Assembly: GCF_013408825.1 (NCBI RefSeq)
Contig: NZ_JACCBZ010000005.1
Location: 1 to 64,000, forward strand
DNA from: Mucilaginibacter tundrae
GTDB lineage: Bacteria > Bacteroidota > Bacteroidia > Sphingobacteriales > Sphingobacteriaceae
DNA length: 64,000 nucleotides
Reading direction: 5' to 3'
The notes below the pieces were generated by a model. It had not been told where the DNA came from, did no database searches, and was given only the letters and a program-made list of their open reading frames with translations. Position 1 is the stretch's first letter. Each line of letters starts with the position of its first letter. Below are positions 37,993-40,890 of this stretch, one piece after another. A program made the translations under genes and the position numbers.

Positions 37993-38160
37993 GTAATACC
38001 AAATCATTCATTAAAACAAGAAAAATATATTTATTCGATTATAATTAGCTAATCCTATATTATCAAAACAATTTTGTTGTGTCAACTCTTTTATAAATAA
38101 AAATTTATACTACTTTTGAATTTATTACTATAATTCAGAAGGCTATCCAAACAAAAAAGA

Positions 38161-38607
38161 ATGATACCGCCATTTAACGAAAATTCATTTTTACCACCTG
38201 GTATTCATTCCGCTACCTTAATTGAATTTAAAGAAAGATTTGTTTATGGTGTAAAAAGACCAATAATCTTTGAAGGACTACTAAGATTAATATCAGATTT
38301 GAAAGAAATTGGTTGTAATGTAGTTTACGTTGATGGGAGCTATGTTTCTTCGAAGGAAAGGCCGAATGATGTAGATGTTTGTTGGGAGTTAACTGATGAC
38401 CCCGCATTTATGCTTTATGCAAAGCAAAAACATCCAATTTTATTTATGATGAAGGGAAAAAGACCAGAGCAGCAGCATAAATATTGTGCGGATGTATTTC
38501 CTGCAAACATTAAAGAAGGTGCGTCTGGAATAATGTTTCTAGATTATTTTCAAAGAATAAGAAATACAAACGAGCCTAAAGGAATTATAAAAATCGAATT
38601 AATATGA
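38161..38607 (+). CDS. DUF6932 family nucleotidyltransferase-like protein
   Basis: A 148-residue protein. It opens MIPPFNENSFLPPGIHSATL and runs VVYVDGSYVSSKERPNDVDV, then FLDYFQRIRN and EPKGIIKIEL, matching DUF6932 from memory. The GS...S-x3-PNDVDV arrangement resembles the nucleotidyltransferase core GS-x10-DxD, as in MNT/AbiEii-type toxins or antitoxins. It starts a three-gene operon; its stop overlaps the next gene by 4 bp (38604-38607). AT-rich, with short AT-rich upstream DNA. Confidence 0.75.
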   Translation: MIPPFNENSFLPPGIHSATLIEFKERFVYGVKRPIIFEGLLRLISDLKEIGCNVVYVDGSYVSSKERPNDVDVCWELTDDPAFMLYAKQKHPILFMMKGKRPEQQHKYCADVFPANIKEGASGIMFLDYFQRIRNTNEPKGIIKIELI

Positions 38608-39134
38608 TAAAGAACGCAAAACAGGCAGGTGTAGCAAAATTACATTTGCAAGCAATGGAAAAAGAAAGGGAGGATATGGTTAAGAACCATAACACTATCT
38701 CTAAAATATCTTTGGAATTAGCTTTAGACTCTTTTGATGGATTAATAGAAGATTTAAAAGAAGAGCTTAATGATTATGAGCAATTAATTTCTCAAGGATT
38801 CCATTGTTTTAAAAACAAATCATTGGATAATTTATCTGAGATTATTATTTCTAGTAGAATAGCACAAAATATCTCACAGAAACAATTAGCTAATGCTATT
38901 GGGATAAAAGAACAGCAAATTCAACGTTATGAATTGAATGATTACGAAAGTGCATCTTTGCCTAGGTTGCAAGAAATTTGTGATGCTTTAAATTTAAATT
39001 TAAGTTTCGTTGATATCCATATATTAGGAAAACAGCCTAATTTTCTTCTTCCTCCTAATGTAAAACCAGATGATGTAGAAATGGCTGAATCAAAAATTAA
39101 AGGAGATTGCTCATTGTATCTATTTAACACATGA
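38604..39134 (+). CDS. XRE-type helix-turn-helix protein
   Basis: A 176-residue protein. The N-terminal ~80 residues are helical and charged (AKLHLQAMEKEREDMVKNH) and unclassified. A canonical XRE-type HTH lies at about 82-138: RIAQNISQKQLANAIGIKEQQIQRYELNDYESASLPRLQEICDALN. The C-terminal tail is short and polar. It overlaps both neighbours by 4 bp, so the three genes are one transcript. It may act as operon repressor or antitoxin partner of the DUF6932 protein (inference). Confidence 0.82.
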   Translation: MIKNAKQAGVAKLHLQAMEKEREDMVKNHNTISKISLELALDSFDGLIEDLKEELNDYEQLISQGFHCFKNKSLDNLSEIIISSRIAQNISQKQLANAIGIKEQQIQRYELNDYESASLPRLQEICDALNLNLSFVDIHILGKQPNFLLPPNVKPDDVEMAESKIKGDCSLYLFNT

Positions 39135-40789
39135 AAACTATAACATTTTATTCCTATAAAGGAGGAGTAGGTAGATCATTAACGCTTGCAAATATTGCTA
39201 TGCGTCTTTCTCAACTAAAGAAAACAGTTTGTGTAGTTGATTTTGATTTAGATGCTCCTGGACTGAGATTTAAATTCACAAATGATTACCTTTTAGAAGA
39301 TAATGAAAAAAAAGGATTAGTAGATTATATCTATCAATTTTCACAAGAAGGTGAATTGCCTGAAAATATTAGTGATTTCACTAATAAGTTAATACCTAAA
39401 AACGTCAATTCCGAGCCAATAATTTTTATATCTGCTGGTAATATTAACTCTTCTGATTATTGGAAAAAATTATCCATGATTAGATGGGCTGATATGTTTT
39501 ATTCTAAACATGGGCACGGTATTAAATTTTTTTTAGATCTAAAGGCAAAAATAGAAAAAGAATTTCAGCCCGATTATTTGCTAATTGATTCAAGAACAGG
39601 TATCACAGATATATCAGGAATTACGCTAAGAATTTTAGCTGATGAAATAATAATTTTAGCAGTAAACAACAAAGAAAATATCTTTGGCACAAAGAAAATT
39701 CTACAAAGCTTTATTAATGAATCTTATATATCAAAAAAGAAAATAAAGCTAAGATTTGTATTAACACGACTTCCGTACTCCGAATCAACTCAAGATAAAG
39801 AAAAAGAATTTCAAGTAATTCAAAGTGTCAAAAAAGAATTGCAAGATGTCTATAATGAAAAAGAACTTGATTTTTTTGTTATACATGCTGATAAAGACTT
39901 GGGGGAAAAGGAAAGTTTAGTTTTGGGTAGCAGTATTGATGAAAAAGCTAGGTTACTTTTCAACAAAAAACAACATGAAACAGAAACAATGTTATCAAGA
40001 GATTATTTGACCCTATTTGATAAAATAACAGAAGGAGATTTATTCCAAGAAGCACATTTATTAAAGATAAAGGAAGCTGAAGAAGAGTTTGCTAATGCGA
40101 TGAATCAAAAAGACCTTACTAAAAAATTAGTTTATTTAAATAAAGTAATTAAACTTGACAGTAACAATTATCGTTACTTAATTGAACGAGGAACGCTTTT
40201 TTGGACACTAGAAATGACCCAAGAGGCAATAGACGATTTTCTTGATGCATTAAAACTTAAAAATAGTGATCTTTATGCTCAGTATGCATTGGGATTACTA
40301 AGTATTAAAAGTAAGGAATATGAAAATGCAGTTAAATATCTTACACCTATTATTCAAATCTTACCCGAGGCAGCTTCTTATAAAGCATACGCATTAAGAA
40401 AGCTAAATCGGAACAAAGAAGCATTAGATTTTTTGAATCAATTTTTAGGTGAACATCCAGATATGGATACTGCTTTAAATTCACGAGCAGACTTATTAAG
40501 AATAAATGGTGATTTTGACAATGCATTAAAAGATATTTACAAAGCTATTGAGTTAAATCCTAGTGAACCAATGTTTATTGCAACCTTAGCAGAAATACGT
40601 GCAAGTTCAAAAGATATTGAAGGGTTTTATTTAAGCTTAACAATTGCATTATCTAAAGGTCTTACTGCACTACAAATGTCCGCAGCAAAAGAAGTTTATG
40701 AGATGTTTATTAATGATAAACGATTTCTTGAGTTGATGGGTAAGTATCAAATTGATGTTAACAGTGTATTTTCCATAAAGGAATCATAA
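39131..40789 (+). CDS. KGGVGR-variant ParA/MinD-like ATPase fused to TPR repeats
   Basis: A 552-residue protein. Residues 1-290 are a MinD/ParA-type ATPase with the deviant P-loop K10-GGVGRS-16, in which the usual KGG-x-GK[ST] lysine is Arg. Other signatures are VVDFDLDAPG (35-44) and YLLIDSRTGITDISG. Residues ~300-545 form helical TPR-like repeats (AEEEFANAMNQKDLTKKLVYLNKVI, ERGTLFWTLEMTQEAIDDF, AYALRKLNRNKEALDFL, LLRINGDFDNALKDIYKAI). KGGVGR-variant ATPases are known from predicted conflict systems, and the fusion suggests a signal-sensing scaffold. It is the last gene of the operon. Confidence 0.82.
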   Translation: MKTITFYSYKGGVGRSLTLANIAMRLSQLKKTVCVVDFDLDAPGLRFKFTNDYLLEDNEKKGLVDYIYQFSQEGELPENISDFTNKLIPKNVNSEPIIFISAGNINSSDYWKKLSMIRWADMFYSKHGHGIKFFLDLKAKIEKEFQPDYLLIDSRTGITDISGITLRILADEIIILAVNNKENIFGTKKILQSFINESYISKKKIKLRFVLTRLPYSESTQDKEKEFQVIQSVKKELQDVYNEKELDFFVIHADKDLGEKESLVLGSSIDEKARLLFNKKQHETETMLSRDYLTLFDKITEGDLFQEAHLLKIKEAEEEFANAMNQKDLTKKLVYLNKVIKLDSNNYRYLIERGTLFWTLEMTQEAIDDFLDALKLKNSDLYAQYALGLLSIKSKEYENAVKYLTPIIQILPEAASYKAYALRKLNRNKEALDFLNQFLGEHPDMDTALNSRADLLRINGDFDNALKDIYKAIELNPSEPMFIATLAEIRASSKDIEGFYLSLTIALSKGLTALQMSAAKEVYEMFINDKRFLELMGKYQIDVNSVFSIKES

Positions 40790-40802: not shown

Positions 40803-40890
40803 TTCAAGCGTCCACGCTTAAACCGATAAGTTGAATTTACTTAAGCGCGGACGCTTACAACCAAAAGCATTCAAGTGTTGACGCTTGAAT
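40803..40890. repeat. Three consecutive short palindromes behind the island
   Basis: TTCAAGCGTCCACGCTTAA (40803-40821), CTTAAGCGCGGACGCTTAC (40840-40858) and ATTCAAGTGTTGACGCTTGA (40869-40888, extends to 40890) are variants of AAGCG-N4-CGCTT. They lie just after the ATPase stop at 40789. They could be binding sites, RNA hairpins or an element end. Confidence 0.65.

Follow-up and report, generated by a model that had tools for sequence, protein, structure and literature searches.

What do three closely packed genes in Mucilaginibacter tundrae do together: a DUF6932 gene (A), an XRE-type helix-turn-helix (HTH) gene (B), and a gene for a MinD/ParA-like ATPase with the variant motif KGGVGR and tetratricopeptide repeats (TPRs) (C)? 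They lie on the plus strand of the 64,000-nucleotide stretch of contig NZ_JACCBZ010000005.1 (positions 1 to 64,000) analysed here as the window, A at 38161-38607, B at 38604-39134, and C at 39131-40789, with an ATGA overlap at both the A/B and the B/C junction. An earlier sequence-only reading had described three AT-rich genes joined by such overlaps, and the open reading frames and a GC content of 0.29 (positions 38001-40000, compared with 0.433 and 0.493 in the flanking kilobases) confirm this, just as matches to PF22014, HTH_3, NF047398, and TPR families uphold the identities that it gave to the products. It further proposed a three-component conflict system; gene order and the partner swaps described below agree with the three-component part, while the defence part is plausible by analogy. 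Judged from genome comparison, the trio is a real, recurring, and mobile three-gene set, and we infer that it represents a new variant of the tripartite toxin-antitoxin (TA) modules. With moderate confidence, we read it as a mobile TA-type module in which an ATPase takes the place of the chaperone of toxin-antitoxin-chaperone (TAC) systems, because of its recurrence, partner swaps in both directions, the predicted nucleotidyltransferase (NTase) fold and the acidic triad of A, the similar tails of two antitoxins, the correlation between B and C, its mobility, and the TAC precedents.

The same A-B-C order occurs in seven distinct Bacteroidota genomes, that of the window and those of loci L032, L037, L064 (where the called A frame is short, at 113 residues), L071, L093, and L204, with genera including Mucilaginibacter, Pedobacter, and Psychroserpens. 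The sequence-only reading had looked for the genes to be found together elsewhere, as they are, and a chance origin can be set aside because the order recurs in this way. Over 15 pairs of trios, the identities of B and C are correlated at 0.67. A search for the ATPase domain of C at E 1e-25 in 399 genomes of the window's family, Sphingobacteriaceae (to which all family counts refer; in the genomes listed, scoring covered no more than six candidates each), revealed six places in five genomes. Five of these are preceded by A and B, and the sixth (L205), in a genome that also carries the trio, by HigB (PF09907, E 1.2e-17) and then a 174-residue HigA-like protein, with an ATPase that is 35% identical to C over residues 1-543. 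The protein is called HigA because it lies behind HigB and because two homologues bear that name in databases; its own match to a Pfam HTH is weak (E 0.12). The opposite exchange is seen in L017, in L018, and on two rhizobial plasmids, where the gene after DUF6932 encodes an XRE protein (M78-matching in L017) and the next one a Beta protein; in L017, the XRE-M78 protein matches the model PD-Lambda-2_B (E 7e-88) of PADLOC, a collection of established and candidate defence proteins, the Beta protein matches PD-Lambda-2_C (E 1e-40), and the first gene matches only PDC-M63A. As far as family matches tell, the swap is reciprocal: DUF6932 occupies the HigB position in PD-lambda-2-like loci, and HigB occupies the DUF6932 position before C. 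Mainly on this ground, we therefore read A-B as a TA-type pair and C as an added third component.

Gene A encodes a protein of 148 residues that covers positions 1-142 of the 142-position PF22014 (DUF6932) profile (E 3.2e-39, 135 bits against a gathering score of 27) and also matches the PADLOC candidate model PDC-M63A (E 7.9e-16). The best structural matches of its AlphaFold2 model (mean predicted local distance difference test, pLDDT, of 93) are HEPN-MNT complexes, the MNT (minimal nucleotidyltransferase) antitoxin, and AadA-type NTases, and the likeness of DUF6932 to the MNTs of HEPN-MNT and Xre-MNT pairs is found at the level of the predicted fold. The signature G59-S60-x9-D70-x-D72 (38335-38376), together with a third acid at D111, corresponds to the Pol-beta NTase motif. 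Among 57 aligned A sequences, G59, S60, and D70 are invariant, position 72 is D in 55 and E in 2, position 111 is E in 41 and D in 16, and the acidic triad is complete in all 57. By motif and model, A is probably a minimal Pol-beta nucleotidyltransferase of predicted activity. A CD-NTase was also considered and is unlikely by size, the MNT and AadA types leading the structural matches; no HEPN gene was called beside A among the open reading frames of the window or in the Pfam scan of its neighbours.

Gene B encodes an XRE protein of 176 residues, a putative antitoxin and autorepressor, with a helical-looking N-terminal region and an HTH_3 domain at residues 85-134 (E 6.9e-11). It matches no PDC-M63 model in PADLOC, while A matches PDC-M63A. 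Relatives of A were sought in one genome per species across 84,980 species, which yielded 381, and the best 80 of the 381 were taken as loci; these span Cyanobacteria, Acidobacteria, Chloroflexi, Proteobacteria, Actinobacteria, Planctomycetota, Bacteroidota, and others. A B-related XRE gene lies directly 3' of A in 77 of the 80, and in the remaining three the available sequence ends within 470 bases. What comes next in these 77 is C in 5 loci, a long B (a frame of 400 or more residues) with a Beta protein in 6, a long B without Beta in 15, and a shorter B without C in 51; some long B proteins have an M78 (ImmA/IrrE) peptidase match, and the genes behind long B were inspected in few loci. Going by these neighbourhoods, A-B is a widespread pair, and what comes after the pair is interchangeable. 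Matches to A were found in 36 of 72,556 plasmid records and, at E 0.01, in none of 50,697 phage records; the DNA of one DUF6932-Beta locus had no match among phages either, and no C-domain match was found at 7 of the 36 A-bearing plasmid places, on up to 5 kb either side.

Further arrangements of DUF6932 were also observed. It precedes XRE and Beta genes at L017 (9153-12549), L018, L026, L027, L057, L074, L075, L084, L089, and L095, with a convergent sce7726-type gene in most, and the scan of L017 showed a PD-lambda-2-like locus with cll. In another DUF6932 lineage of the family (L014, L015, L019, L020), the partner is a protein of 96-99 residues instead of an XRE protein. In L022, L023, L069, L079, and L096, DUF6932 and a long XRE protein head a similar gene set, which continues with a gene of about 200 residues (DUF4186 by annotation in L022), then two more of about 340 and 410-440 residues, a gene of about 180 residues (ASCH by annotation in L022), and, in the loci that show it, a small kinase-like gene. 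On the Acinetobacter pittii plasmid pNDM-AP_882 (L025), DUF6932 and an XRE-ImmA/IrrE gene lie between Tn7-like tnsD/tnsE and IS30, upstream of blaNDM-1.

Counting against A as the toxin, the protein of PD-lambda-2 that is toxic by itself is B rather than A, so that in the trio, too, B could be the toxin and A the antitoxin. Under this alternative, which we consider rather unlikely, B would be the harmful protein, and A would neutralise it, possibly by nucleotidylating B as MNT AMPylates the HEPN toxin, with C as a defence-specific third part. It agrees with the accessible text on validated PD-lambda-2 (PMC9519451), where the first gene is HigB-like and PD-lambda-2B, toxic alone, is rescued by PD-lambda-2A, and with the structural matches of A, in that the leading HEPN-MNT complex chains include one titled mono-AMPylated HEPN toxin. 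However, the B protein of the trio has no catalytic domain in Pfam and lacks the M78 peptidase of PD-lambda-2B, and the first gene of the HigBA-C locus matches the HigB toxin family. In the Xre-MNT pair of S. suis, moreover, the accessible text of PMC8406773 reports the MNT as the toxin, though with toxicity upon periplasmic export and not in the cytoplasm.

The TA-type reading, with A as the toxin and B as the antitoxin, is also consistent with the C-terminal ends of the antitoxins. The extension of B, at about residues 141-176 (39024-39131), is a candidate docking tail for C by its profile similarity to that of HigA. All seven C-linked B proteins extend about 35-50 residues past the HTH, whereas the 15 aligned unlinked B proteins end sooner or have other tails; the C-linked HigA (L205) also has a C-terminal extension, and a protein search gave 48 HigA homologues, the majority of which share a similar ending (...RG-[AST]-L...), with 7 ending in an unrelated way. 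For profile comparison, 14 B tails were set against 35 HigA tails (34 of the 48 and that of L205), the 14 HigA tails left out being 7 with another ending and 7 that were short or differing. Two runs gave probabilities of 56 and 65 and scores of 21.9 and 21.4, compared with 5.9-15.3 for four unrelated tail sets and at most 15.6 for 200 column shuffles (0 of 200 as good). When each tail was left out in turn from a hidden Markov model (HMM) of the B tails, L093 (50.5), L064 (35.7), and L037 (29.3) scored well above 72 unlinked B proteins (best 5.7). HigA relatives are present in 123 of 351 family genomes; among 30 loci examined, a KGGVGR ATPase occurs at a single one, whose HigA carries the tail. 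Twelve other HigA ends have no such tail, 10 of them stopping after frames of 121-145 residues and two carrying an unrelated ending, with one of these two loci stopping 415 bases behind the HigA match. The tails of two unrelated C-linked antitoxins thus appear similar, weakly but significantly by profile. The HigA homologues of L208 and L209 have a different C-terminal extension, with no KGGVGR ATPase on the available locus.

Gene C encodes a protein of 552 residues that matches the NCBIfam family NF047398, 'KGGVGR-motif variant AAA ATPase' (E 4.8e-48, 164 bits against a cut-off of 90), and the PADLOC candidate PDC-M28B (E 7.5e-28), and the leading matches of its model (pLDDT 88) include MinD/FlhG and TPR folds. 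The KGGVGR motif (39158-39175) keeps the signature lysine and has arginine (R15) in the position of the P-loop lysine, as do 59 of 60 aligned rows, the other having a gap. The modelled TPR superhelix comprises residues 307-540 or so (40049-40750), where columns conserved at 80% or more number 25 of 68 in TPR5-6, 11 of 70 in TPR1-2, and 1 of 68 in TPR3-4; because of this difference in conservation, TPR5-6 is the likeliest docking place for the tail of B. A plain chromosome or plasmid partition ParA is ruled out by the motif, the TPR architecture, and the neighbours. The sequence-only reading, which would have failed had the ATPase been a plain partitioning protein in most genomes, is upheld on this point: C scores over the KGGVGR cut-off, the scanned neighbours are not partition genes, and all six family places lie behind a TA-like pair. 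No ParB family was found in A, in B, or in the flanking genes scanned with Pfam, two on either side. C matches MinD/ParA-type and TPR families, and no SecB is among the 23 Pfam families found up to E 1. The C protein of the window has no PDC-M28C match; the L153 protein has one within the same protein.

KGGVGR proteins over the NF047398 cut-off were found in 5 of 201 family genomes, at six places, of which three are trios and two others adjoin a TIR gene; the TIR_2 cut-off is passed by the one in the window's own genome (G000:C2) but missed by the one in G021. Wider searches added few cases. The whole of C matched only the window's genome among 395 genomes of the phylum, with just 3 candidates per genome scored and TPRs crowding these; residues 1-255 matched 2 of the 395 (at most 6 candidates per genome scored), the second of them TIR-linked, and 15 genomes around that second one held no further case. 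Six plasmid records match C over the ATPase domain only, and none matches it beyond that domain. An antitoxin of the MqsA family, known from its annotation or from a Pfam match over the cut-off, also precedes a KGGVGR ATPase on plasmids of Rhizobium and Massilia and in two viral contigs.

Other KGGVGR loci were noted in passing. In the window's own genome (L151:5065-7727), the TIR gene overlaps a second KGGVGR ATPase that is fused to a GH25 domain; in G021 (L152), the KGGVGR gene lies behind the weaker TIR match, and in G476 (L198) behind a TIR gene with TIR_2 over the cut-off. The MqsA-family antitoxin directly precedes the ATPase in L129 (2971-5360), L130 (2940-5360), L116, L117, and L119 (match below the cut-off), and the small upstream genes of about 120-128 residues in L117, L119, L129, and L130 match no Pfam family. 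KGGVGR-domain proteins also occur in L153, L124, L126, L127, and L128; they are long in the first four, and that of L153 is the one that also matches PDC-M28C. A gene of 149-167 residues, HEPN-like by eye, precedes the protein in L153, L126, L127, and L128, and the L124 sequence starts inside the gene; the L153 copy of the HEPN-looking gene matches no Pfam or PADLOC family.

The partners of KGGVGR ATPases bear on a second alternative, a sensor-effector defence in which C would be an ATP-dependent sensor or oligomer that recruits A as the effector, and B would merely regulate transcription. HTH-peptidase control in some operons of the cyclic-oligonucleotide-based anti-phage signaling system (CBASS) offers a parallel for such a B. 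The occurrence of these ATPases behind genes for TIR, a widespread type of effector (the TIR_2 cut-off is exceeded in L151 and L198 but not in L152), and the match of C to PDC-M28B point the same way. We nevertheless regard this as unlikely; the sequence-only reading had likewise let the HTH protein control expression, which probably understates B, a protein that stands in the antitoxin slot.

In the TA-type reading, A would be a minimal nucleotidyltransferase in the HigB-type toxin position, B an XRE antitoxin and autorepressor in the HigA position, and C a third component with the role that the SecB-like chaperone has in TAC systems. In a healthy cell, the C-terminal TPRs of C would hold the C-terminal tail of B, and B would stay stable in a complex with A. 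If infection disturbed C, or if C were lost, the tail would be exposed and B would disappear, and the freed A may then transfer a nucleotide to an essential target, whether tRNA, ribosome, or protein, and stop growth. More broadly, and only tentatively, KGGVGR-TPR ATPases may be the third component of a new tripartite TA class, an 'ATPase addiction' parallel to the chaperone addiction of TAC, in which unrelated antitoxins would have independently gained a similar dependence-giving tail, and the nucleotide state of the ATPase or its capture by a phage would decide toxin release. The third protein of TAC systems can make a TA pair respond to infecting phages; a comparable function of a MinD/ParA-type ATPase, if real, would give a role to the KGGVGR ATPases, an NCBI family so far named by its motif only, and to DUF6932, and would constitute a second, independent route that couples toxins to a sensor.

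Several observations weigh against this interpretation. Over the 15 pairs of trios, the identity correlations are just 0.35 for A-C and 0.54 for A-B, and the C-linked HigBA was found at one locus, so that this side of the swap is a single case. Of the 14 B tails compared, 7 have a confirmed link to C, as does 1 of the 35 HigA tails, and the tail of the C-linked HigA scores 1.0 bit against the B-tail HMM. In the leave-one-out comparison, L032 (6.4) is barely over the best unlinked B, L071 (1.4) is under it, and 17 of the 72 unlinked B proteins score above 0. Furthermore, for a deletion of PDC-M63AB, a related pair named by PADLOC, in E. coli NILS69, the accessible text of PMC12409345 reports no evidence of defence against the phages of that strain.

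Phage defence by the trio is plausible by analogy, from related systems and from the conflict-type neighbours of two trios, namely multiubiquitin/E1-like pairs in M. oryzae and an FRG gene with a weak, sub-cut-off Mrr-like match in Pedobacter arcticus. In M. oryzae (L012:1954-9080), the trio was seen between two similar gene pairs in opposite orientation; family matches identify one pair as multiubiquitin and E1-like (DUF6791-ThiF), and the other side has a DUF6527 gene.

In the window, the trio has a family 2 glycosyltransferase gene on one side and an OppC-type permease gene on the other. Of 41 genomes of the genus, 26 (that of the window among them) have a match to the downstream permease, and seven of the other sites were compared. 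In six of the seven, a glycosyltransferase match is followed by a permease match 63-270 bases away, and the trio is absent; the seventh, which belongs to the closest relative, shows different genes next to the permease; the stretch does not include the upstream genes, and A, B, and C are absent there too. Because its GC content is low and the flanking genes stand side by side in six of seven relatives, the trio is, on comparative grounds, an insertion and mobile. No recombinase family was found by the Pfam scan among the scanned genes on both sides. The sequence-only reading had placed repeats on both borders, and the downstream part of this claim holds: three palindromic repeats, CAAGCGTnnACGCTT, lie at 40805-40887 (6 strand-matches, a number reached in 1 of 100 shuffles), and the stretch is probably a dispersed repeat because pieces of it match 10 other places in the genome. 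Upstream of the trio only short, weak repeats occur, and a matched pair of flanking repeat borders was not found. Upstream of A, TACTTTTG (38111-38118, plus strand) is a candidate Bacteroidota -7 element on sequence alone, likened to TAnnTTTG, which we take to be the Bacteroidota -7 consensus. A selfish stability module, that is, a TA pair with a ParA-like ATPase that aids its own maintenance and has no anti-phage role, would suit the 36 plasmid records with A relatives and the absence of an anti-phage effect of PDC-M63AB in one strain in the accessible text of PMC12409345, but we consider it improbable given the altered P-loop and TPR domain of C, the absence of partition genes among the scanned neighbours, the lack of plasmid matches to C beyond its ATPase domain, and the conflict-type neighbours of the trios in M. 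oryzae and Pedobacter arcticus.

How does the trio, read as a TA-type module, compare with known systems? The sequence-only reading knew of no characterised system with this set, which stands for the exact set within the open-licence literature in PubMed Central (PMC); A matches PDC-M63A, however, and PD-lambda-2 and TAC are characterised analogues. In that literature, no paper was found that names DUF6932 or KGGVGR, only one on PDC-M63 or PDC-M28, none on 'Gop-beta-cll', and nothing on this trio among the work on MinD-like or ParA-like ATPases and defence; the main text on DefensePredictor (PMC13092281) does not contain 'MinD', 'ParA', 'nucleotidyltransferase', or 'HigB'. Two candidate systems overlap with the trio in part. 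PDC-M63AB shares its first gene as judged by the match of A to PDC-M63A, but the candidate has two genes, and the B protein of the trio matches no PDC-M63 model; PDC-M28 shares the ATPase through PDC-M28B, but the window's C has no M28C match and the partners differ. HEPN-MNT and Xre-MNT pairs resemble A-B in having a minimal Pol-beta NTase in a small two-gene module, with an Xre partner in S. suis according to the accessible part of PMC8406773.

Like the trio, PD-lambda-2 consists of three genes, a toxin-like, an XRE antitoxin-like, and a third gene, the last being required for defence in PD-lambda-2. The two differ in that A is not HigB-like, B has no M78 peptidase, and C is not a Beta protein. 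We rejected PD-lambda-2 as a name for the trio, as the window's B and C match neither PADLOC model (XRE-M78 B and Beta C), whereas the L017 proteins do.

TAC systems (HigBAC, MqsRAC, CmdTAC) share with the trio a toxin, an HTH antitoxin, and a third gene, with interchangeable TA pairs beside a conserved third gene. The C-linked HigB-HigA pair at L205 sits where A-B sits, which gives positional support, at one locus, for a type II TA reading. In TAC, a SecB-like chaperone protects the antitoxin, and the dependency is conferred by a C-terminal extension of the antitoxin (accessible text of PMC6377645 and PMC5105189); a tail protein of phage lambda breaks the HigA-HigC contact and sets off HigB (accessible text of PMC11980606). 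The B protein of the trio has an extension as well, and by analogy its stability may depend on C. TAC systems provide abortive phage defence in tested cases, according to the accessible text of PMC9519451. The toxin slot in the window is taken by a DUF6932 NTase, unlike in TAC, and the third gene, a SecB-like chaperone in TAC, is in the trio a KGGVGR MinD-like ATPase with TPRs.

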